A stretch of DNA of 64,000 bases from assembly GCA_035699745.1 (NCBI GenBank), contig DASSPH010000083.1, forward strand, positions 1 to 64,000, written 5' to 3'. This DNA is from Vicinamibacterales bacterium (GTDB taxonomy: Bacteria; Acidobacteriota; Vicinamibacteria; Vicinamibacterales; 2-12-FULL-66-21). The translations under genes were made by a program, and so were the position numbers. Position 1 is the first letter of the stretch; each line of letters opens with the position of its first letter. Of the stretch, positions 41,051 to 52,755 are shown in pieces. The notes below the pieces were generated by a model. That model saw only the letters and a list, made by a program, of their open reading frames with translations. It was not told the origin of the DNA and did not search any database.

Positions 41051-43267
41051 TTACACTTCTGTCTCTGCCTGAAGCGTTTCCCACTTGTGCATCAAGTCGC
41101 CGACCTCCCACATCAGAGCCTGATGGCGGTCGATGACCGGCTTGGCGGCCTCGTGGTTCTCGTAGAAGCCGGGCTCGGACATCCGGGCTTCGAGCTCCCG
41201 GACTTCAGCCTCAGCCTTCCCAATCCGCGCCTCGAGGTCCTGGATGCGGCGGTTGCGGGCGTCGGCTTCCTTTTTTTGGCGCCTGGCGTCGGCGTCGGCC
41301 CTCTTCTTTTCCTCGTACGAGGGCTGCGGCCGCGCCCCTGCGGCGGCGGGCACCCCGGCCGTCCCGGGTGCCAGGTCTGCGTTTGGCTGCTTCCCGGTGC
41401 CAGGCACCGGCCCGTGCTGTTTCCCAGACCTGGCACCTGCCTCCTGCACGTTCCCAGACCTGGCGCGCGCGTCGGGGCTGTTCGCAGACCAGGCACCCGC
41501 CTCCCGCCCGTTCGCAGACCTGGCACCCGCCTCCTGCCCGTTCGCAGACCTGACCCCCGGATCCCGGCGGGTTGCAGACCTGGCACCGGGGTCGGGGGCG
41601 GCCGCAGACCTGGCACCCGGGGGGGCCGCCGGCCGCTGTGTCTTGCTCCACAGCCACTCTTCGTAGTTCCCCGGATAGACCACCGCGTCCCCGCGGCCGA
41701 TATCGACCACCTTCGTCGCCAGCTTGTCGACGAAATAGCGGTCGTGCGAGACGAAGATCAGCGTGCCGCCGAAGTCCTCGAGCGCTTCGAGCAGCACGTC
41801 CTTCGAGTCCAGATCGAGATGGTTGGTCGGCTCGTCGAGCAGCAGCGTGTTGGCCGGAATCAGCAGCATCCGCGCCACCGCCAGCCGCGTCCGCTCGCCG
41901 CCCGACAGCACGCGCACCGGCTTGTCGATGTCGTCCCCCGAGAACAGGAAGCCGCCGAGGATGTTGCGCACGTGCGGCATCATCTGGATCGGCGCGCTTC
42001 CCGCCAGCGTTTCGTACACGGTCTTCGTCGGATCCAGCTTCGCCGCTTCGTCCTGCGCGAAGTACTGCATCACCACCTGGTGACCCTCGGTCCGGGTTCC
42101 CGCGTCCGGCGCCTCGACGCCTGAGAGCATCCGCATCAGCGTCGACTTGCCGACGCCGTTGGGCCCGATCAGCGCGATCCGGTCGCCCCGCTCGATGTGC
42201 AGGTTGACGTCGTCGAAGACCCGCGTCGCGCCGTACGCCTTGCGCACGTGCTTCAGCTCCAGCACCATCCGGCCGCTCTTCTGCGTCTGCGGAAAGTGGA
42301 AGCGGACCCGCTTCCGCTCCGGCGGAATCTCGATGCGGACGACCTTGTCGAGCATCTTGATCCGGCTCTGCACCTGCGACGCCTTGGTCGCCTGGTAGCG
42401 GAAGCGGTTGATGAACGCCTGCATCCGCTCGATCTCGTCGTCCTGATCGCGCTTCATCTGGCGCAGGCGCTCCATGCGCGCGTCGCGCTCCTTCAGATAC
42501 GCCGAGTAGTTGCCGACGTAGTCGGTGAGCGTCCGCATCCCGATCTCCGTGATGCGCGTGACGACGGCGTCGAGGAAGAAGCGGTCGTGCGACACGAGGA
42601 TGACGGCGTGCGGATAGTCGGTCAGGTACTCCTCGAGCCAGTTGCGCGCGTCGAGATCGAGGTGGTTGGTCGGCTCGTCGAGCAGGAGCAGGCCGGGGCG
42701 GCCGAGGAGCAGCCGCGCCAGCGCGATGCGCATCTGCCAGCCGCCGGAGAACGTCTCGGTCCGCTTCTCGAGGTCGGCGTCGGAGAACCCGAGACCGCGC
42801 AGCACCGTCGTGACCTTCAGGTCGATGGTGTAGCCGTCGCTGCGCCGGAACGCCTCCTGCAGCTCGGCGTAGCGCGAGAGCATCTGCTCGTGATCCTCGT
42901 GCGGCGTGGAATCGTCGCCGAGCCGATCCTCGAGCGCGGCGATCTCCGCTTTCATGTCGAGCAGGGGCTTGAAGGCGAGGCTGGCCTCTTCGCGGAGCGT
43001 GCGGCCGCTGTAGGCGAGGCCGTCCTGCGGCAGATAGCCGATGGTGAGCCCCGCCGGCTTGACGATCAGACCGGCGTCCGGTTCGTCGATCCCGGCGAGC
43101 ATCTTCAACAGCGTCGTCTTGCCGGCGCCGTTGGGCCCGCTCAACCCGACCCGTTCGCGGTCGTCGATCTGCCACGTCACGTTGTCGAGCAGTACGCGGT
43201 CGCCGAAGGATTTCGAAAGAGAGGAAAGTTGAATCACGGGAACGGCAGGTGACGGCGCCAGGCGCAC
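41051..43267 (-). CDS. ABC-F ATPase with decapeptide-repeat linker
   Basis: 738-aa ribosome-associated ABC-F protein (Uup/EttA group). ABC1: Walker A GPNGAGKTTLL, signature ETFSGGWQMRIALARLLL. ABC2: GPNGVGKSTLM and RVLSGGERTRLAVARMLL. After ABC2 (about residue 535) come eight or so copies of a ten-residue unit with core GARSA (PGARSAAAPD, PGARSATRRD, AGARSANGRE). A C-terminal coiled coil follows (ARIGKAEAEVRELEARM). The linker is far longer than normal for the family. GTG start at 43267, 12 nt after a TAAACT box. Confidence 0.93.
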   Translation of the reverse strand: MRLAPSPAVPVIQLSSLSKSFGDRVLLDNVTWQIDDRERVGLSGPNGAGKTTLLKMLAGIDEPDAGLIVKPAGLTIGYLPQDGLAYSGRTLREEASLAFKPLLDMKAEIAALEDRLGDDSTPHEDHEQMLSRYAELQEAFRRSDGYTIDLKVTTVLRGLGFSDADLEKRTETFSGGWQMRIALARLLLGRPGLLLLDEPTNHLDLDARNWLEEYLTDYPHAVILVSHDRFFLDAVVTRITEIGMRTLTDYVGNYSAYLKERDARMERLRQMKRDQDDEIERMQAFINRFRYQATKASQVQSRIKMLDKVVRIEIPPERKRVRFHFPQTQKSGRMVLELKHVRKAYGATRVFDDVNLHIERGDRIALIGPNGVGKSTLMRMLSGVEAPDAGTRTEGHQVVMQYFAQDEAAKLDPTKTVYETLAGSAPIQMMPHVRNILGGFLFSGDDIDKPVRVLSGGERTRLAVARMLLIPANTLLLDEPTNHLDLDSKDVLLEALEDFGGTLIFVSHDRYFVDKLATKVVDIGRGDAVVYPGNYEEWLWSKTQRPAAPPGARSAAAPDPGARSATRRDPGVRSANGQEAGARSANGREAGAWSANSPDARARSGNVQEAGARSGKQHGPVPGTGKQPNADLAPGTAGVPAAAGARPQPSYEEKKRADADARRQKKEADARNRRIQDLEARIGKAEAEVRELEARMSEPGFYENHEAAKPVIDRHQALMWEVGDLMHKWETLQAETEV
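41396..41640. repeat. 30-bp tandem repeat with GGTGCCAGGCACC-type palindromes in the ABC-F gene
   Basis: About eight 30-bp units sharing GCAGACCTGGCACC on the plus strand. At one end is the perfect palindrome GGTGCCAGGCACC (41396-41408). The period is a multiple of three, so the frame is kept and encodes decapeptides. Sequence is related to the GGGTCAGACCC element in xerC. Confidence 0.8.
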
Positions 43268-43409: not shown

Positions 43410-43438
43410 TTGGATCCGCGCCGGCACGCTTTTAGGAT
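43410..43438 (+). promoter_or_regulatory. Promoter for the small secreted protein gene
   Basis: TTGGAT (43410-43415), a 17-bp spacer, then TAGGAT (43433-43438), 11 nt before the ATG at 43450. Transcription would begin about 5 nt before the start codon. Confidence 0.55.
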
Positions 43439-43449
43439 TGCCGCACCCC

Positions 43450-43926
43450 ATGCGCTCACGGCTCCTCCTCGTGGTGCTGCCGCTCGCGATCTGTGCGCGC
43501 ACCGCCGGCGCGGAGGACGTCAAGTCGGCGAACGTGACCATCAACGTGAACCTGGCGGCGCGCACCTCCTTGAAGGTGTCGAGCCGCATCCTGCAGTTCG
43601 ACGTCACGGAGGCGGGCGCAACGGCGACTGCCTCGCTGGAGTTCACGGCGGGCGCGCGCATGCCCGCGGGATCGGACGTCGTGCTCAGTGTCGAACCGGT
43701 GAGGCCGCTCGAGGGGCCCGGCGGCGCGGCGGACGTCGCATCCGATCTGAGCTTCAGCGGCGAAGGACAGGGCATGCTCGCCGGATCGATCGACGCCGCA
43801 CAGAGCACCGTCGTGGGACGCTGGCAGGGCAGCGGGCTGCGAGCGGGACGGGTGATCTTCAGGCTGCGCGCCGGCGCCGCCGGCATCTACGCGCTGCCGG
43901 TGCGCATGGTGCTGAGCACTCCCTAG
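43450..43926 (+). CDS. Small secreted beta protein, fourth subunit-like protein of the fimbria-like locus
   Basis: 158-aa exported protein. Signal peptide about 1-22, then alternating hydrophobic strands (VTINVNLAARTSLKVSSRILQF) and a C-terminal strand ending VRMVLSTP. This resembles the ends YTLTAP, YTLSAP and FTLSAP of the three subunit-like proteins encoded on the other strand (47310-48829). It is convergent to that operon and overlaps the barrel gene by four bases. It is probably part of the same envelope structure; no enzyme motif is present. Confidence 0.65.
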   Translation: MRSRLLLVVLPLAICARTAGAEDVKSANVTINVNLAARTSLKVSSRILQFDVTEAGATATASLEFTAGARMPAGSDVVLSVEPVRPLEGPGGAADVASDLSFSGEGQGMLAGSIDAAQSTVVGRWQGSGLRAGRVIFRLRAGAAGIYALPVRMVLSTP

Positions 43927-46529
43927 CGGGCGCGCGTAATCCACATCTTCAATCCGAGCTGGCTCTCGAGCCGCGACACGACCCGCTGTGCGGAGGTGCG
44001 CGACTCGTACTTCCCGACGCGGACGCGATAGAGCGCGTCCGCCATTCCGCCTGCCGGCTCGACCAGATACGCCTCGAAGCCGACGCGCTTCAGCTCCTGC
44101 AGCAGTTCGCGCGCGTTCGCCGCGTCGCTCATCGCCGCGACCTGGATGGTGTAGATCGCGAAGGATGGCAGAGCGGACGCCGCCGGCGCGCGCGAACCGA
44201 CCGGGCGCGCCGCACCCGGCAGCGGCGCCGGCGATCGCGCGGCTGCCGCCGACGCCGGCGGCGGCGTGTTGCCCGGACGCGACGGAAACACCTTGCGCAC
44301 CTCGGGACGCTTCTCGATCGTGACCAGGAACACGATGTCGACCTGCGGCGTGTCGCGCGTCACCTCCAGCGTTCGTCCGTTCGCGCCGACGATCGCGGAT
44401 CCCTCGGGCAGCGACTCCTTCAGCAGCTCGATGCGGTGCTCGCCGGCGCGGACCGCGTCGAAGCGGAACTGCCCCTTGCGCACCAGCTCGGAGCGCTGCC
44501 CGCCGTCGAGCACCAGCACGGCGTTGTCGACGGAGGGATCCCCGGCATCGATCTGGCCGTTCCGGTTGGCGTCCTCGAAGACGTACCCCCGAATCGCGCC
44601 CAGCGGCAGCAGTCCGAACGCGACGCGCCGGCTCTCGCCGCGCGAAACCTCGAGCGCGACGTCGGTGCCGGCGGGAGCGTCGAAATCCACCGGCAGCGCA
44701 TTCAGATCCAGGCGCACCTGATGCGCCCCGCTGGGGACGTTGAGGAACGTGAACTGCCCGTCGCGTCCGGTCGTCACCGCGGACAGCGTTCCGAGCAGCA
44801 CGGGAATTCCCGCCAGCACGTTCTCGCCCGGGTCCGGCTGCCCGTTGGCGTTCCAGTCCGCGAAGACGCTGCCCGACACCGTGCCGGTGCCGCGTCCTGC
44901 CCGCGCCATCGTGCCGCTCTCGCTCGCCACGCGTACGGCTCCGGTCGCGATCGAATGGACGACGCGGAGCGTGGAGCGGGTGAGCCAGGCGTTGGATTCG
45001 CCGGGCAGGCCGATGGGCGCGCGATCGGCGTAGACGTTGAGACCGATCGTCGTCTGGGTGGTGAGCTGGCCGTTGAGGCCGACGCTCACCGCTTCGCGCG
45101 GGACCAGCATGCCGGTGGTGAATTCGCGGTTCCGGCTCGTCGTCCCTTCCACGCGGACCCAGAGTCCGGGCCTGAACAGCTGCTGCTGCCCGCCGGCGGT
45201 GAACTGCACGTACGATCCGCCGCCGCCGGTCGCGAGCCGGTTCCTGCTCAACATCGCCAGTCCGAAGAGCTGCGTCTCGCGAGTGAGGTTCAGGAAGAAC
45301 TGCCCCGTGGTGTCTTCCTGATCGTAGGTCGAGGCGGTGAACACCGAATCCACGCTTTCGCGGCGGCTGTAGCGCGCGAACGCGGTGAGCGGTCCGATGC
45401 CCGTCTGCAGCTCCGCGGTCCTGCTGCCGGTGTCGCTCGTCGAGGCGAACAGCGAGGCCGGCGACTGCGGGATCGGCGGCCGGGCGACGCGGCCGCCGTC
45501 CTCGATGCGGAGCGACAGCAGCGACCGGCCGGCGATGCGCAGCCGTATGCCGCCGAAGTGCCGCTGCGTTTCGGCGATCGGTCGATCCAGCGCGGTGCCG
45601 GTCGGCGCGATGTTGGTATCGAGCTGCTCCCATCCGCCGAACACGCGGACGCGATCGAACAGCTCGTACTCGCCGGCCGAGAAGATGCCGCTGCGGTCGT
45701 GCAGCGACGCATTCAGCACCGGCAGATCGCCGGGGGAATAGCGCGACGCGTTGACCTGGACCCAGCCTCGCGCGATGAGCACGTGCGCGCCGGCGAGGTA
45801 CGAGTAGTCGTGGACGGCGGCCGCGGCGCCGGTGGCGCGGTAGCGGACGTATCCGGCGTCGCCGATCAGGTGGAACGACGGCGTCACCACGAAGCGGACG
45901 CCGCCGCCCGCCTGATCGCTGGCGTCGATGGTTCGCGGGAACTCGCCGAGGTCGCGCGTGCGGACCCGCGAGCCGCGGGCGAGCAGCTGGACGCGCGGCG
46001 TCGCCTGATAGGCCAGGCGGGCGAGACCCACGGTCTGGCCGAGCGCGTCCGGATCCGTACCGAAGATGTTGCGCCACGCCGTCGAGCGGCCGCCGGCGAT
46101 CTGCAGCGACAGCGTCTTCGATCGGCCGCTGACGGCGCCGCCGGTGAACGTGATCGCCGGCGCCGCGAGATTGGTGAAGTGGTAATCGACCAGCGACGGC
46201 GGCGTGTAGAGGTCGCCTCCCTCGAACGTCCAGGCGACGCCGCGGGCGCGGGCATCGCGCAGCGCGAACCAGCTGCGACCGAGGTGGAGATCGTCGCCGC
46301 GGCGCGAGGCGCGCAGCTCCAGCTGGAGCTGGCCGAACCGGCGTCCGGGCTGCGTCCACAGCGCGCCGAAGTCCGGCTCGAGGCGCCGCTCGGCCAGCCG
46401 CCGCTGCGGATGCCCCTGGACGATCTGCGTGTCGGTGGAGATCTGCAGCGAGCCCTGCTGCGCCGCCGCGGTCGCCGACGCGGCGAGGATCACCGCCGCG
46501 GAGCACGCGGGGATCGCGGATCCGCGCAC
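43923..46529 (-). CDS. Outer-membrane barrel-like protein with SdrD-like repeats and C-terminal SPOR domain
   Basis: 868 aa. Signal peptide (GSAIPACSAAVILAASATAAA), then about 500 residues of alternating strands typical of an outer-membrane barrel (GGGVRFVVTPSFHLIGDAGY, GLWVRVEGTTSRNREFTTGM). Two calcium-type SdrD_B-like domains follow (GSVFADWNANGQPDPGE about 551; GYVFEDANRNGQIDAGD about 648), a Pro-rich linker, and a SPOR domain (about 792-866, FAIYTIQVAAMSDAANA). SPOR binds bare septal glycan. It stands where an usher gene would be, last after the chaperone, but no canonical usher plug is recognised. GTG at 46529 preferred; an upstream GTG at 46559 overlaps the chaperone. Confidence 0.8.
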   Translation of the reverse strand: MRGSAIPACSAAVILAASATAAAQQGSLQISTDTQIVQGHPQRRLAERRLEPDFGALWTQPGRRFGQLQLELRASRRGDDLHLGRSWFALRDARARGVAWTFEGGDLYTPPSLVDYHFTNLAAPAITFTGGAVSGRSKTLSLQIAGGRSTAWRNIFGTDPDALGQTVGLARLAYQATPRVQLLARGSRVRTRDLGEFPRTIDASDQAGGGVRFVVTPSFHLIGDAGYVRYRATGAAAAVHDYSYLAGAHVLIARGWVQVNASRYSPGDLPVLNASLHDRSGIFSAGEYELFDRVRVFGGWEQLDTNIAPTGTALDRPIAETQRHFGGIRLRIAGRSLLSLRIEDGGRVARPPIPQSPASLFASTSDTGSRTAELQTGIGPLTAFARYSRRESVDSVFTASTYDQEDTTGQFFLNLTRETQLFGLAMLSRNRLATGGGGSYVQFTAGGQQQLFRPGLWVRVEGTTSRNREFTTGMLVPREAVSVGLNGQLTTQTTIGLNVYADRAPIGLPGESNAWLTRSTLRVVHSIATGAVRVASESGTMARAGRGTGTVSGSVFADWNANGQPDPGENVLAGIPVLLGTLSAVTTGRDGQFTFLNVPSGAHQVRLDLNALPVDFDAPAGTDVALEVSRGESRRVAFGLLPLGAIRGYVFEDANRNGQIDAGDPSVDNAVLVLDGGQRSELVRKGQFRFDAVRAGEHRIELLKESLPEGSAIVGANGRTLEVTRDTPQVDIVFLVTIEKRPEVRKVFPSRPGNTPPPASAAAARSPAPLPGAARPVGSRAPAASALPSFAIYTIQVAAMSDAANARELLQELKRVGFEAYLVEPAGGMADALYRVRVGKYESRTSAQRVVSRLESQLGLKMWITRAR

Positions 46530-46533
46530 GCGG

Positions 46534-47370
46534 CTACGACACCTTGAGCGTGGTCTCACCCACGATCAGCGCCGGCAGCCCGACGTCGATCTTGATCTCG
46601 ACGCGATACTCGCCGGGCGGCGGCTTCGGTTTGTCGGGATTGAACGCCGGAATCGCGACTTCGCGCTCGGACTCGGGCAGCAGCGGCACGTCGGGCACGG
46701 TGGTCTGTCCGATCACCGCGTTCGTCCTGTCGTACATCGTCAGCGTGCCGCGGGTCCGCACGGTGCGCTGCCCGGCGTTCTTCAGGATGGCGATGATCTG
46801 CGTCGGCTGATCCGGCAGCGCGCGCGTGCGCAGGTCGGTGAGCTCCACTGCGGCCGGGGGCTCGCCGACGTTGGCGTAGATCAGCGTGGCGATGCGGCTG
46901 CGGAAGGCGACCTCGCGCGGCTTCGGGATCGGCGACGCGTTCACCGGACTGAACTCGAACAGCACGCTGGTGCGATAGCCCGCCGGGGACACGCCGGCCG
47001 GGACGCTGAGCGTGAACCGCACGGCGGCCTCCTTGCCGGCGTCGACGACGATCTCGGGAGGCGCGACGCGCATCCAGCCGGACGCCGAGTACTTCGGATC
47101 GGCGGCGCCGACGAACTGCGGCGAGCCGTCGCGCGAGAGGTGCCAGTCGGAGATGACGGCGCGAACGCGGACCGCGTCCTTGCCGGTGTTGCTGACGGTG
47201 ATCGACTGGGTGGTGATGCCGCCTGGCGCCGCCTTCAATTCGAGGCGGAGCGGCGTGACTTCGACGGAGGTCTGCGCCGCGGCCGGCACGCTCACCGCGA
47301 GCGCCGCGATCAGGGCGCCGAGAGCGTGAAGACGAGCGTCTGCGTGTAGTTGCCTGCGCTGTAGGTCCAT
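46534..47370 (-). CDS. Periplasmic fimbrial-type chaperone (PapD-like)
   Basis: 278-aa exported protein. Signal peptide within 1-33 (ALIAALAVSVPAAAQ). Two immunoglobulin-like domains: VEVTPLRLELKAAPGG with TQSITVSNTGKDAVRVRAVISDW is the donor-strand half, and the second is PPAAVELTDLRTRALPD to VEIKIDVGLPALIVGETTLKV. In chaperone-usher systems such proteins cap subunits by donor-strand complementation. The ATG lies 61 bp inside the subunit-3 gene, and there is no later usual start codon, so translation is tightly coupled. Confidence 0.8.
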   Translation of the reverse strand: MDLQRRQLHADARLHALGALIAALAVSVPAAAQTSVEVTPLRLELKAAPGGITTQSITVSNTGKDAVRVRAVISDWHLSRDGSPQFVGAADPKYSASGWMRVAPPEIVVDAGKEAAVRFTLSVPAGVSPAGYRTSVLFEFSPVNASPIPKPREVAFRSRIATLIYANVGEPPAAVELTDLRTRALPDQPTQIIAILKNAGQRTVRTRGTLTMYDRTNAVIGQTTVPDVPLLPESEREVAIPAFNPDKPKPPPGEYRVEIKIDVGLPALIVGETTLKVS

Positions 47371-47795
47371 GAATTGGCCAATCGAAATGTCACCGACCCG
47401 TTCGCGGCCGGATTGACGTTGCCGGAGCCCGATGCCAGCCGCTGCGCTACGGTCTTGCTCAGCGTGCCGTTCTGATAGGGAGGCGCCGGCGTCGCGGTCC
47501 ACGACACGTTCGTGATATCGACCGTTGCCGGCCCGGCGATTAGGTCCCCGCCCGCCAGCACCGTCAGCATCCACGCGCCGCCGTTCTGCCGCACGCGGAC
47601 GCTGACGACCACGGGCGCCGCCGCCACCGTCGGACTCACGTCGGGATCCGCCGACGCGAAGGTGATCGAGGCCGGCGAAATGGAGAGATCGAGCTGCGGG
47701 TTGCTGCCGCCGCCGCGTCCTTGCGCGAGCGCGGTGCCGGAGGGAAGCGCCGCGAAGGCCGCGGCAAGCGCGAGGCAGCGTGCCCGGCGGGTCAT
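47310..47795 (-). CDS. Subunit-like small secreted beta protein 3
   Basis: 161 aa with signal peptide (about 1-25, GTALA-Q). It shares with proteins 1 and 2 the blocks ITFASADPD, VSWTATP, SWTYSAGNYTQTL and the end FTLSAP. A Gly-rich stretch follows the signal. The C-terminal pattern (GxYTxTLxFTL) is reminiscent of spore-coat-U/archaic fimbrial pilins. It shares ATGA with the preceding gene. Confidence 0.75.
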   Translation of the reverse strand: MTRRARCLALAAAFAALPSGTALAQGRGGGSNPQLDLSISPASITFASADPDVSPTVAAAPVVVSVRVRQNGGAWMLTVLAGGDLIAGPATVDITNVSWTATPAPPYQNGTLSKTVAQRLASGSGNVNPAANGSVTFRLANSWTYSAGNYTQTLVFTLSAP

Positions 47796-48292
47796 GGGGC
47801 GCTCAGCGTGTAGAGCAGTGACACGGTGTAGGTGCCGGTCGGGTGGGTCCAGAGATTGCGGAAGTACAGCTGCTGGCTGCCGCTGCGGACGCCCGATCCC
47901 GTCCACGTCGCCAGCGTCACCGGAGCCTGCGTGCTCAGCGTACCGGCGACGAATCCGGCGCCGGTCGCAGTCCAGGTGATGTTCGCGGCGGGGATGACGT
48001 TGACCCCGGATCGCAGATCGTCCGCCGCCTGCAGCGTGAGCACGACCTGCATGCCGGGCGTCGCCCGGGACTTCGCCGTAATCAGAATCGGACCGCCCGC
48101 CGTGGGAATCTGCGGAATGGCGTCGGGATCCGCGTCGGGGAACGAGGCGCTCGCCGTCGAGAGATTCAGCTTCGCGATGGTGCCGACGTTCGCCGAGAGT
48201 GTCGCGGTCGCGGCCTGGGCAGACGCACGCGCGGCGGGCGCGGCGGCCGACCAGGCCATGACGGCAGCGAGCAAGCGGCGTGAAAGGACCAT
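47792..48292 (-). CDS. Subunit-like small secreted beta protein 2
   Basis: 166 aa with signal peptide (about 1-25, ARASA-Q). Conserved blocks SASFPDADPD, ITWTATGAGFVAGTLST and LWTHPTGTYTVSLLYTLSAP align over the full length with protein 1. No cysteine is present, unlike most classical pilins, so it must fold without a disulfide. Starts 36 bp after protein 1 and overlaps protein 3 by four bases. Confidence 0.78.
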   Translation of the reverse strand: MVLSRRLLAAVMAWSAAAPAARASAQAATATLSANVGTIAKLNLSTASASFPDADPDAIPQIPTAGGPILITAKSRATPGMQVVLTLQAADDLRSGVNVIPAANITWTATGAGFVAGTLSTQAPVTLATWTGSGVRSGSQQLYFRNLWTHPTGTYTVSLLYTLSAP

Positions 48293-48328
48293 CGGCGGAC
48301 CGGCTCGAGAACCCGGCCCGCTTATCGG

Positions 48329-48829
48329 CTACGGCGCGGTCAGCGTGTAGGTGATCGTCGCGGTGTACGTGCCGGTCGCGTAGTTCCACGAGTTCACCAG
48401 ACGATAGGTCTGCTGGCCCGTGTAGTTGCCGCCGCCGGTGTACGACGCCAGCGTCACCGCGCTCGTCGCCATCGTCCCGGCGACGAAGTTGGTGCCGGTC
48501 GCGGTCCACGTGAGGTTGTTGATGCCGATCGTGGCGCTGCCGTTGTCGAGATCGCCGCCCGACTGCACCGTCAGCGACACCGTCGACGCCGCCGCCGTGC
48601 GCGCCTTGACGTCGACCGAGAGCGCGCTGGTCGCCGTCAGCAGCGGGGTGACGTCAGGATCGGCGTCGTTGAAGGTCACGCTGGCCGCGCCGAGCGTCAG
48701 CTTCGCCTTCGCGTTGACGTTCGCGGTCACGGTGACCGAGCCGGTCGCCGTGGCCTGCGCGAACGCCGGGGTTGAACACAGCGCAAGTGCCGCCGCCGCG
48801 AGAACGCCGCTCCACACTGCCTTCTTCAT
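48329..48829 (-). CDS. Subunit-like small secreted beta protein 1
   Basis: 166 aa with signal peptide (MKKAVWSGVLAAAALALC, cleaved about residue 24). Mature blocks: VTVTANVNAKAKLTLG, SVTFNDADPD, LTWTATGTNFVAGTMAT, NSWNYATGTYTATITYTL. It has GGAG eight bases before the chosen ATG, so 48829 is preferred to 48841. First gene of the operon and probably the most expressed, as expected for a major subunit. Confidence 0.8.
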   Translation of the reverse strand: MKKAVWSGVLAAAALALCSTPAFAQATATGSVTVTANVNAKAKLTLGAASVTFNDADPDVTPLLTATSALSVDVKARTAAASTVSLTVQSGGDLDNGSATIGINNLTWTATGTNFVAGTMATSAVTLASYTGGGNYTGQQTYRLVNSWNYATGTYTATITYTLTAP

Positions 48830-48983
48830 GACTCGCTCCATCGCTGCCGGATTGATTCGCCGCCTGGCGTTCGACCCACCGGTCCAGATCCGCACGCCGG
48901 AATCGCCACTGCCGCCCGATCCGGACCGCCGGGAGCTCGCCGTTCCGGATCAACCGGTAAATCGTCCGAGGCGGGGTATTCAA
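48654..48983 (-). pseudogene. Degenerate MerR/excisionase-type HTH gene upstream of the subunit operon
   Basis: The minus frame encodes VLGYLNTPPRTIYRLIRNG, then ELPAVRIGRQWRFRRADLDRWVERQ, an HTH_17-type DNA-binding domain nearly identical in plan to the N terminus of the regulator at 49170. The frame lacks an ATG or GTG upstream of the domain (only TTG at 48983; the nearest ATG near 49020 is followed by a stop in its frame) and has no stop for 175 bp inside the subunit-1 gene. It is either a decayed copy or an unusually translated regulator. Confidence 0.55.
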
Positions 48984-49169: not shown

Positions 49170-49760
49170 TTACTCGCCCAGCGCCTTGGCGGCGGCGGCG
49201 AGTACCCGGGGAACGCGGAACGGCTTGGTCAGATAGCCGGAGACCCCGAGGTTGACCGCTTCGATCGCGCTTGCTTCGTTCGAGAAGCCGGTGATGATGA
49301 TGACCGGCAGGTCCGCCTTCAAGCGGCGCGCCTCACGGATCACGGTCAACCCGTCGACCCCCGGCATCTTCAGGTCGGTGATCAGCAGATCGTAGGGGAT
49401 CATTCGCAGGCGATCGAGCGCCGCGCGGCCGTCGGGCGCGAGATCGACGTCGTACTCCGCGAGGGCGAGCGTTTTCGACAGCAGATCGCGGATCGTCGCC
49501 TCGTCGTCCACCACCAGGACGCGGGGGCGTCCGACGCCGGCCGCCGCCGTCCGTGCCGGCGCCGACACGGGCGCGGAGCGGCCGCCGCGCGGCCGCTGGC
49601 TTTCGAGCCATGCGTCGATGTCCCGTTTCCGGAAGCGCCACTGACGCCCCACGCGAATCGCCGGGATCTTTCCTGCTTTGATGAGGCGATAGACCGTCCG
49701 GAGGTTGACCTGGAGGTACTCGAGTACCTCTTCGGTCGTCAGGAAGCTTTCATCGATCAT
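49170..49760 (-). CDS. HTH (excisionase-type) and receiver-domain fusion regulator
   Basis: 196 aa. An N-terminal HTH_17 domain (FLTTEEVLEYLQVNLRTVYR to VGRQWRFRKRDIDAWLE, residues 5-55), a short Pro/Ala linker, then a receiver domain (about 77-195) with the acidic pair in VLVVDDE, phospho-Asp in LLITDLKMP and Lys in GYLTKPFR. DNA binding first and receiver second is the reverse of the common order. The kinase gene 26 bp upstream is the likely partner. It probably controls the neighbouring subunit operon. Confidence 0.88.
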   Translation of the reverse strand: MIDESFLTTEEVLEYLQVNLRTVYRLIKAGKIPAIRVGRQWRFRKRDIDAWLESQRPRGGRSAPVSAPARTAAAGVGRPRVLVVDDEATIRDLLSKTLALAEYDVDLAPDGRAALDRLRMIPYDLLITDLKMPGVDGLTVIREARRLKADLPVIIITGFSNEASAIEAVNLGVSGYLTKPFRVPRVLAAAAKALGE

Positions 49761-49786: not shown

Positions 49787-51328
49787 TCACCCTTCAGCGG
49801 CGGGCAGCTCGATCCGGAACACCGCGCCCCCGTCCGGCGCGTTCGTCGCCGCGATCGTGCCGTCGTGCTCGTGGACGATGCCGTAGGTGATGGCGAGACC
49901 CAGGCCGGTGCCCTGCCCGACTTCCTTCGTGGTGAAGAACGGATCGAAGATCCGCGGCAGCGCTTCCTCGGCGATCCCCGGTCCGCTGTCCTGCACCGTG
50001 ACGGCGACGGTGTCCGGCGTTCGCCCCGCCGACGTGGTCACGCGAATGCGCCGTTCCGGGGCGCCGCGCACGGCGTGTTCGGCGTTCAGCAGGATGTTCA
50101 CGAGCGCCTGCTGCAGGAGCATCGCATCGACGTTGACCGGCCGCAGTCTCGGCCCCTTCTCGCGCTCCACCTGAACGCCGCCGCGCTGCAGCTGCACCGC
50201 GCAGCTCGCGATCGCTCTCGTCACGACGCGATCGAGCGGGACCCGATGCCGATCCATGCGGTGCGATCCGGTGAAGACCAGCAGGTTGTGCACGATCTTC
50301 GCCGCCCGTTCCGCTTCCTGGTAGATCTGCTTCAGCTCGCGCCGCACCGGCCGCGCCGCCTCGGTCATGTCGATCAGCAGCTCGAGATGCCCCAGCACGC
50401 CCTGCAGCGGGTTGTTCATCTCGTGCGCGATGCCGGCGACGAACTGCCCGAGGGACGCCAGCTTGGCCGACTGCGCCAGCCGCTCGCGCAGCGCCGCGCG
50501 CTCCGCTTCGAGGCGGGTCTGTCGCGTGATGTCGCGCGCGACCAGCACGCGTCCGTGGGTGGTGCCGTCTTCCCGCGTGAGCGGCGTCGCCGTCAGCAGG
50601 AAGGTCCCGTTCAGCCGGTCGTCGTCTACGCGCCGCTGCGCCGGCGTGGTGGCGTCGTGCGGATCCGGGCAGGCGACGTAAGCGAGCGTGTCGGCGCTCA
50701 CCAGGTGGGCGAGGTTCTGCCCGATCAGCTGCTGGCGCGTCGCGCCGACGCGCGACGCGAACGCATCGTTGGTCTGGACGATGCGCATGCCGAGGTCGAC
50801 GACGGCGACGAGATCGACGAGCGAGTTGAACGTGTCTTCGAGCAGCCGGCGCTGCAGGAGGATGTCCTCGAGCAGCTGCACGTTCTCGATGCCGACCGAC
50901 AGCTGCCGCGCGAGCTCGTGGGTGAAATCGACCAGCCCGTCGTCTTCGGGTGCGCCCGGCGGCGGCGTGATGATCAGCGCGCCCAGGGCGCGGCGCCAGC
51001 CCCGGAGCGGCGCCACCAGGCGGGGTCCGCGCACGGCGGTGCGTTCGAGGCGAAGCGCCTCGGCGGCCTCGTGGGACGCGGCGTCGGCCGCGACCTGGAG
51101 GCCGGGTTCGCGGCCGCCGGCGGAGGCGGCCAGCGTGAGGCGCCTGGCGCGGCGGTCGTGCAGCCAGATTTCGACCCCGGCGGCGCCGAGGGCGTCGCGG
51201 ACCTCCGGCGCCAGCGTCTCGAGCGCGGGCGTAAGTCGATGATTGACAGCCACTTGCCTGGAAAACTGCAGCAGCAGATCGCGCAGGCGCTGGTGGGTCC
51301 GGACCTCGCGTTCGAGGCGTGAGATCAT
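49787..51328 (-). CDS. GAF-PAS sensor histidine kinase
   Basis: 513-aa soluble kinase without membrane helices. GAF domain (about 20-165), PAS domain (about 175-280, [20 protein letters not shown]), HisKA with His in [17 protein letters not shown], and HATPase_c with [21 protein letters not shown] and [13 protein letters not shown]. It is paired with the HTH-receiver gene that follows. ATG at 51328 is preferred to an upstream TTG encoded by a 7-bp tandem repeat. Confidence 0.9.
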
Positions 51329-51344
51329 AAAGGTCGGGTTCCTC

Positions 51345-51379
51345 AAGCCTAAAGCCAAACGCGTAAAGCCAAAAGAGCA
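51345..51379. repeat. 7-bp tandem repeat between kinase and sigma-factor genes
   Basis: Units near AAGCCTA/AAGCCAA in 7-bp register fill the gap between the divergent kinase (51328) and sigma (51420) genes. Confidence 0.65.
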
Positions 51380-51419
51380 ACCCTCCGGTCTAATTCACAG
51401 AGAAGAGAGCTCCTTCGGG

Positions 51420-51998
51420 ATGGCATCGACCGACGAAGAACTGGTCGCCCGATCACAGGGTGGCGACCTGGAAAGCTTCAACCAGCTCGTGGTGCGCTGG
51501 GAGCGGCCGATCTATGCCCTCGCGTATCGGACGATCGGGCGCGAAGAAGATGCCCGCGACGTCTGTCAGGAGACGTTTCTCCGGGCGTTCCGCGCCCTGA
51601 AAGGGTTCAAAGGCCAGGCGAAGTTCTCGTCCTGGCTGTATCGCATCACGCTGAACCTGTGCCGCGACTGGATCCGCCGCGAGCGGCGGCAGCCGGTGGC
51701 GCAGGCGCCCGAAGGCGTGGACCTGATCGAGCTGGCGTCGGAGCAGACGCCGACCGAGACGATCGAGGAGCTGGTCGCGCGGCACGAGATCGGTCAAGCT
51801 GTCGCGCGCGCGATGGCGGAGCTGCCCGAAGAGCAGCGGACCGCGATCATCCTGAAGGAATACCACGGCCTGACGTTCCAGGAGATCGCCGACATGCTCG
51901 ATTGTCCGCTGAGCACGGTGAAGACGCGCCTGTATCAGGGACTCAGCGTGCTGCGGCGTCAGCTGGATCGCGAAGGTGTTGGACGCAATCATGTGTGA
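51420..51998 (+). CDS. ECF RNA polymerase sigma factor
   Basis: 192-aa ECF sigma factor. Region 2: FNQLVVRWERPIYALAYRTI and EEDARDVCQETFLRAFRAL, then WLYRITLNLCRDWIRRERR. Region 4: ELPEEQRTAIILKEYHGLTF with QEIADMLDCPLSTVKTRLYQG. It is cotranscribed with its anti-sigma factor, whose ATG overlaps the sigma stop region by eight bases. RpoE/SigW-type stress control is likely. Confidence 0.95.
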   Translation: MASTDEELVARSQGGDLESFNQLVVRWERPIYALAYRTIGREEDARDVCQETFLRAFRALKGFKGQAKFSSWLYRITLNLCRDWIRRERRQPVAQAPEGVDLIELASEQTPTETIEELVARHEIGQAVARAMAELPEEQRTAIILKEYHGLTFQEIADMLDCPLSTVKTRLYQGLSVLRRQLDREGVGRNHV

Positions 51999-52755
51999 CA
52001 AAGAGCGACTCGTTTCCTATCTCTACGACGACCTGGCGGATGCGGAGCGCGCGGCGTTCGAGCGCCACGTCCGCGACTGCGGCGAGTGCCGCGCCGAGTT
52101 GAACGCGCTGCGCGGCGTGCGCGCCGACCTCATTTCCTGGTCGCCGCCGCAGCCCGACTTCGGCTTCCGCGTCGTCCGCGAGCCGAAAGTGCTGCCGATG
52201 CGCCCGTCGTGGCGCGCGCGATGGACGCCGGCCGCGGGGCTGGCCGCCGCCGCGGTGCTCGTGCTGGCGATCGCGTCGGCGATCGCACGCGTCGAGATCA
52301 GCAGCGGTCCGCAGGGCTTCACCGTGCGGACCGGCTGGAGCGCGGCGCCCGGCGCACCCGAACGCCCGCAAGCGGCGCGTCGCGACGTGCCGCTGCCCGC
52401 GTCGGCCGCGGCGGGGGATGCCGCGCTGATCGAGTCGCTGGATCGGCGGCTGCGCGCGCTCGAAACGGCGGTGCGGGAACCGGGTCTCGTCCGCAACGCG
52501 TCGCTCTCGGCGCGCTCGCGCGACTGGGACGCGGAGATCATCCGCCGCGTGCGCGAGATGCTGGCGCAGAGCGAGAGCCGGCAGCAGGGCGAGCTGGCGC
52601 TCCGCATCGCCCAGGTGCTCCGCGACGTCGACGCGCAGCGGGTGGAAGATCTGAAGCGGATTCAACAGGGGCTGCGCTCGGTGGAGGCCACGGTCAATGC
52701 CGAAGCCGCGGGACATCGCGAGGTGACGAACTACATCCTCGCGAGGCAGAGGTAA
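51991..52755 (+). CDS. Zinc-finger anti-sigma factor, membrane-bound
   Basis: 254 aa. The N-terminal zf-HC2 domain has HVRDCGECRAEL near residue 28. One transmembrane helix follows (GLAAAAVLVLAIASAI, about 82-100). The periplasmic part of about 150 residues is helical with a coiled-coil look (LIESLDRRLRALETAVREP, DVDAQRVEDLKRIQQGLRSV). It should hold the preceding sigma factor at the membrane until a signal triggers release. The start MCDKERL at 51991 overlaps the sigma gene. Confidence 0.9.
   Translation: MCDKERLVSYLYDDLADAERAAFERHVRDCGECRAELNALRGVRADLISWSPPQPDFGFRVVREPKVLPMRPSWRARWTPAAGLAAAAVLVLAIASAIARVEISSGPQGFTVRTGWSAAPGAPERPQAARRDVPLPASAAAGDAALIESLDRRLRALETAVREPGLVRNASLSARSRDWDAEIIRRVREMLAQSESRQQGELALRIAQVLRDVDAQRVEDLKRIQQGLRSVEATVNAEAAGHREVTNYILARQR

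Follow-up and report, generated by a model that had tools for sequence, protein, structure and literature searches.

Within a 64,000-nucleotide stretch of DNA from a Vicinamibacterales bacterium of the phylum Acidobacteriota (contig DASSPH010000083.1, positions 1 to 64,000; the window from here on), one operon encodes three tandem secreted subunits (sub1, sub2 and sub3), a periplasmic chaperone and a large outer-membrane barrel, and a fourth subunit paralogue converges on it. In our judgment the operon probably makes a fibre by donor-strand exchange, the chaperone assisting assembly and export proceeding through an usher-like barrel that lacks a plug. The locus would work like a chaperone-usher system in which the chaperone is a member of the known superfamily and the barrel falls outside the usher definition. 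A literature search, from which most subscription journals were absent, turned up no description of a comparable system in this phylum.

A conserved locus with a PapD-superfamily chaperone

The chaperone belongs, by sequence comparison, to the PapD superfamily. Taken alone, the window protein has no good family match in Pfam. A 14-member profile of its family finds EfmWxLIP1 (9i25, 9i1y) across both domains with an expect value (E) of 1.2e-5; for CsuC the value is 0.014. With E allowed up to 1, family members, the window protein not among them, match the models PF06030 (WxLIP_PGBD; 12 of 14, best 3e-6), PapD_N (5 of 14) and PF11797 (4 of 14). Alignment by hhalign to seven classical chaperones of E. 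coli K-12 gave E 3e-5 over 200 columns covering both domains, and the reversed control gave 0.28. It should be noted that this controlled comparison is the clean test; another hhalign comparison (probability 99) was partly circular, since its targets included loci that the query profile itself had brought up. The PapD-like chaperone proposed in an earlier, sequence-only reading of the locus is borne out by these matches. Its closest relatives by sequence, the WxLIP proteins of Gram-positive WxL clusters, had not entered that reading.

Archaic and alternative chaperones carry a signature consisting of a proline (59 in CsuC, 60 in EcpB) and carboxylate-anchoring arginines (Arg89 and Arg174/148), and the arginines have been tested by mutation (PMC4654587). 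In the HMMER alignment, Pro59 and Arg89 of CsuC fall on P102 and R131 of the window chaperone (residues counted from window position 47364), and Pro60, Arg89 and Arg148 of EcpB fall on P102, R131 and R203, the EcpB match being itself weak (E 0.02). P102 and R203 are invariant across the 14 members. As judged from these alignments, the chaperone keeps the non-classical anchor residues.

The genes are co-conserved. Full-length matches to the barrel were found in seven of 60 relatives searched, the window's genome included, and a chaperone search of 149 relatives returned those seven at full length, together with four weak matches. In the orthologous loci a regulator is followed by three to four subunits, the chaperone and the barrel; the convergent paralogue is usually there too, and in most cases a kinase precedes the regulator. 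In locus L024 one subunit is placed behind the chaperone, and in L026 an extra subunit sits between the subunit of the sub3 class and the chaperone. Loci of this kind also recur across the phylum: among 297 Acidobacteriota genomes, the barrel profile brought up further operons with subunits, chaperone and barrel in the neighborhood. In each of 28 chaperone loci inspected beyond the window, the barrel profile scores a large open reading frame next to the chaperone or close by; it is downstream in 27 (within about 1.1 kb, mostly directly adjacent) and upstream in one. Locus L097 was found by both the chaperone profile and the usher model PF00577, and there the chaperone is clearly of the PapD_N kind and the barrel clearly an usher. 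The chaperone profile has matches in 35 of the 297 genomes, whereas PF00577 ushers occur in nine, that of the window not included; searches based on PF00577 miss such systems.

The paralogy of the subunits, on blastp evidence, far exceeds chance: sub1 is 47% identical to sub2 (E 1e-35) and 40% to sub3 (E 5e-24), and sub2 is 35% identical to sub3 (E 4e-14). The similar protein described as convergent is indeed so, at 43438-43926 (+), and is 27% identical to sub1 (E 9e-10). The motif blocks that had been reported for all three tandem proteins stood in part, some of them being exact in no more than two of these proteins. FVAGT and the exact TWTATG are found in two subunits, sub3 having SWTATP and YQNGT instead; sub2 reads LWTHPTGTYT where an SWxY motif had been claimed, and sub1 ends in TLTAP. 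Orthologues of sub2 are present in L021-L023 (54-61% identity). All seven order-level loci have a member of the sub3 class (46-67% identity), as do several distant operons. By alignment, the class lacks the alternating-hydrophobic N-terminal extension throughout the order and, farther away, in several operons; a Wx[LI] motif is invariant in the class within the order. The fourth paralogue lies next to the barrel in five of the seven orthologous loci.

The subunits share one fold (24 aligned), and sub1 is predicted to be a pilin-like immunoglobulin (Ig) domain. Its AlphaFold model has a predicted local distance difference test score (pLDDT) of 93.8, and mature residues 1-16 (QATATGSVTVTANVNA) carry no strand in the model, which makes them a candidate donor strand. 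Foldseek placed CfaB, the pilin domain of PapG, FimG and CsuA/B at the top, with modest scores (best E 2.7e-4); over the Foldseek and VIA-align comparisons taken together, PapA is also among the best folds. VIA-align ranked the structural matches of sub1 (48332-48757) as TLP-1a/b (Z 9.2), CfaE (8.6) and CsuA/B (7.4); a Z of 7-9 alone may reflect the common Ig arrangement, and the weight lies in the clustering among fibre subunits. AlphaFold, Foldseek and VIA-align together support the expectation of a pilin-like fold preceded by a strandless N-terminal segment.

An usher-like barrel not recognized by the usher model

The barrel is usher-like in its overall predicted architecture. The model, built from six sequences, is of moderate confidence (pLDDT 75.5) and has about 26 strands, starting from mature residue 3, followed by two Ig-like domains. 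At whole length, Foldseek placed FimD and then PapC first, at E about 1e-16. The barrel is the only candidate exporter in the locus. The sequence-only reading had looked for the exporter in "the SPOR protein or a distant usher"; the protein stands, and its SPOR domain is not what defines it. That domain (PF05036; 51.5 bits against a cut-off of 21) covers roughly the last 75 residues, behind the barrel and two SdrD_B/CarboxypepD-like domains. It is present in the window protein, L021 and L022, absent from L024 and L026, and unseen in L025; in L023 the contig end has removed the region. The domain is absent, then, from at least two, probably three, of the seven orthologues, and it recurs on barrels of other clades (L050, L092). 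Because its occurrence among orthologues is patchy, we regard it as an appendage and not as the exporter.

Several results weigh against fibre export by this protein, or against its kinship with ushers. PF00577, the family against which the barrel was to be checked, does not match it, and no PF00577 usher was found in the window's genome. The usher N-terminal domain is absent from the model, the first strand beginning almost at the mature end. The plug, which in ushers lies between strands 6 and 7, is absent as well: strands 103-113 and 117-129 are joined by three residues, and no plug-sized insertion occurs anywhere else in the barrel model. With both parts absent, recruitment, gating and closure of so wide a pore remain unexplained. 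An hhalign comparison with ushers gave E 0.2, and the controls (BtuB, FhuA, LptD and reversed sequences) did at least as well. Template modeling (TM) scores to FimD are only about 0.4 in Foldseek, and when the barrel alone was compared by VIA-align, the 26-strand MtrB porin came out best (Z 19.9 vs. about 15 for PapC). On the subunit side, the Pfam models for fimbrial and pilin proteins, spore-coat U (SCPU), DUF4402 and WxL (PF13731) have no match among 24 and 20 aligned subunits, and the search against spore-coat-U and pilin models that had been proposed was therefore negative. Scans of the subunits against Pfam and NCBIfam found no family either, and the only WxL (PF13731) match in the genome is sub-threshold and lies outside the subunits. 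Finally, R131 of the chaperone is replaced by His in L042-L048, the loci most distant from the window. As the barrel fails three defining tests for an usher, we do not class it as one.

Ancestry is a separate matter. The locus could be a true chaperone-usher system whose usher has diverged and lost the N-terminal domain and plug but is by ancestry still an usher. This does not conflict with the fibre reading, and we give it a little less than an even chance. The profile of the C-terminal module matches the C-terminus of a PF00577-positive Acidobacteriota usher at E 1e-4 (best reversed control 0.37), and by this comparison the two modules are homologous, although SdrD_B-like domains are frequent in unrelated proteins. 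The chaperone profile reaches the PapD_N chaperone of that same usher. A GD hairpin on barrel strands 5/6 resembles a hairpin of FimD, a likeness that is suggestive and not significant, whereas the barrel itself carries no significant sequence signal and has about 26 predicted strands instead of 24. The term distant usher is a plausible description, but the direct comparison of barrel and usher sequences is not significant.

The related barrels vary in their parts. Those at L050:5255-8410 and L085:3292-5838 have an N-terminal domain like Cu_amine_oxidN1, which may do the work that the N-terminal domain does in ushers. Plug-like segments were read from the sequences of the barrels of L087, L090, L092, L094 and L095. 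At L092:2152-6087, a 1312-residue usher-like protein with a plug-like segment and four SPOR domains has DUF4402 pilins and a PapD_N chaperone as neighbors. SPOR domains were apparently added to such barrels more than once.

The nearest relatives of the chaperone suggest another reading, which we consider improbable: the locus would be the diderm counterpart of a Gram-positive WxL/WxLIP cluster, with the chaperone-like protein as a permanent partner holding the subunits in a peptidoglycan-bound envelope complex, the barrel and SPOR domain as a link to the outer membrane and wall, and neither fibre nor export. EfmWxLIP1, and not a pilus chaperone, is the best sequence relative of the chaperone in the PDB, and PF06030 is the model that most family members match; yet the chaperone also matches CsuC and the classical chaperones, and bears no recognized wall or membrane anchor. 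SPOR domains bind peptidoglycan, but several orthologues do without one. The invariant Wx[LI] of the sub3 class recalls WxL proteins, whereas the subunits have no PF13731 match and are nearest to pilins in fold, and several subunit genes with N-terminal extensions suit polymerization better. More improbable still is that the barrel has no part in export, being a general porin or anchor, with the subunits released or kept in the periplasm: MtrB is the best structural match of the barrel alone, but ushers rank first at whole length, chaperone and barrel are closely linked in all loci examined, and no multihaem cytochrome gene was seen among the neighbors. An MtrB-like electron conduit was considered and dropped on the last of these grounds.

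Layout of the locus and neighboring genes

All of the genes discussed are present, five on the minus strand and the fourth paralogue on the plus strand (Table 1). They are tightly packed: the ATG of sub3 overlaps the sub2 stop as ATGA, the chaperone gene starts within sub3, and the barrel gene and the fourth paralogue converge with a 4-base overlap. The barrel has 868 residues if translation starts at GTG 46529 and 878 if it starts at GTG 46559.

Table 1. Features of the fibre locus and its candidate regulators, in window coordinates
Feature	Positions	Strand	Remarks
Subunit 1 (sub1)	48329-48829 (alternative ATG 48841)	-	Signal peptide, N-terminal extension, predicted pilin-like Ig domain
Subunit 2 (sub2)	47792-48292	-	Paralogue of sub1; carries N-terminal extension
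Subunit 3 (sub3)	47310-47795	-	Paralogue without alternating-hydrophobic N-terminal extension; invariant Wx[LI]; candidate tip/first subunit
Periplasmic chaperone	46534-47370	-	Two Ig domains; PapD superfamily; WxLIP/CsuC-like
Outer-membrane usher-like protein, 868 residues, whole gene	43923-46529	-	AlphaFold pLDDT 75.5; Foldseek FimD then PapC
Beta-barrel region, about 26 strands directly behind signal peptide, no plug insertion	44931-46460	-	Strand list of the model; VIA
Two C-terminal Ig-like (SdrD_B/CarboxypepD_reg) domains, at the position of the usher C-terminal domains	44316-44888	-	Pfam SdrD_B E 7e-12
SPOR domain, optional C-terminal appendage	43938-44153	-	Pfam PF05036 E 1.3e-13
Fourth subunit paralogue, convergent, with N-terminal extension	43438-43926	+	blastp to sub1 E 9e-10
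Small HTH_17 reading frame	48654-48983	-	Pfam PF12728 E 4e-17; directly upstream of sub1, overlapping its start
Response regulator, HTH_17 then receiver domain	49170-49760	-	Pfam; candidate regulator of the operon
Histidine kinase (GAF, PAS, HisKA, HATPase)	49787-51358	-	Pfam; likely partner of the response regulator

A response regulator upstream is the candidate for control of the operon. Its HTH_17 domain lies N-terminal to the receiver, an unusual order, and a regulator of this build is kept upstream in all six orthologous loci. The histidine kinase, its likely partner, adjoins the regulator in L022-L025. Between regulator and sub1 there is a small reading frame of the HTH_17 (excisionase) type that resembles the regulator's own HTH_17; the window copy has no ATG start, and counterparts occupy the same position at L025:5250-5501 and L026:5102-5428. 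Divergent from the kinase, an extracytoplasmic-function (ECF)-type sigma factor and a zf-HC2 anti-sigma gene (51243-52755, +) are kept in four of six orthologous contigs. On the other side of the operon, an ABC-F ATPase gene contains a 30-bp tandem repeat of 6.6 copies (41421-41619), which encodes GARSAN-type repeats placed after the second ABC domain and before the C-terminal one. The host is a soil-type bacterium.

Proposed assembly and comparison with known systems

In the fibre reading, the signal peptides would carry the subunits across the inner membrane, and the two-domain chaperone would bind the conserved C-terminus of each and supply the missing Ig strand. The role of the chaperone is suggested by its homology and anchor residues; the logic of strand donation is suggested by the predicted pilin fold, by the existence of a subunit class without an extension, and by the strand prediction for WxLIP proteins (PMC10599100). 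The chaperone strand would give way, at the outer membrane, to the N-terminal extension of the incoming subunit, and a linear fibre would grow outward through the usher-like barrel. The sub3 class, having no N-terminal extension, could accept a strand and not donate one, and we infer that it comes first, at the tip; the shaft or its end would be built from sub1, sub2 and the convergent paralogue. With the recruiting N-terminal domain and the plug both missing from the barrel, its C-terminal Ig-like domains would take over recruitment. In proteins that have it, the SPOR domain may tether the assembly to peptidoglycan. If the barrel truly exports a fibre in this form, it would reveal what an usher can do without, and gating and recruitment would become testable.

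Among known systems, the archaic and alternative chaperone-usher pili (Csu, ECP, CFA/I) likewise have several small pilin-like subunits in one operon, a non-classical two-domain chaperone with conserved Pro and Arg anchors, and an outer-membrane barrel bearing C-terminal Ig-like domains. Unlike theirs, the window barrel lies outside PF00577, has no usher N-terminal domain or plug and has about 26 predicted strands, and the window subunits lie outside the SCPU, DUF4402 and fimbrial Pfam models. The Acidobacteriota usher-like loci L092, L094 and L095 are joined to the window by a chaperone that the window-family profile finds and by homologous C-terminal barrel domains, and in L092 also by SPOR repeats. 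Their barrels differ in carrying, as read from sequence, an N-terminal domain along with the plug-like segment, and the subunits of L092 and L094 differ in being DUF4402 proteins.

The best VIA-align match of sub1 covers 138 residues at 19% identity and is to the TLP-1a and TLP-1b filaments (9ikj, 9ikk), which we take to be pond-water filaments from the CryoSeek work. To our knowledge, their source genes have not been identified. The TLP-1 protomer is longer than sub1 (236 residues) and no sequence-level match to it was found; because PDB searches with the subunit profiles gave nothing useful, the resemblance remains structural only. A bolder view, which we hold tentatively and think rather unlikely, is that the locus represents a separate Acidobacteriota fibre pathway with an ungated barrel devoid of N-terminal domain and plug and a chaperone intermediate between WxLIP and pilus chaperones, that WxL clusters and chaperone-usher pili share a single strand-donating ancestor, and that some orphan environmental filaments of the TLP-1 type could be products of such loci.

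The WxL/WxLIP clusters of Bacilli (DUF916-DUF3324) resemble the window locus in the chaperone, which matches EfmWxLIP1 over both domains, and in their small tandem Ig-like partner proteins. Strand donation is predicted there too, AlphaFold complexes having a WxLIP strand fill a gap in the WxL sandwich (PMC10599100). In contrast, the window host is diderm with an outer-membrane barrel, its subunits have no PF13731 match, and the locus has no large WxL protein, LPxTG motif or membrane anchor. The chaperone is a bridge in sequence from the Gram-positive WxLIP proteins to the pilus chaperones of Gram-negative bacteria.

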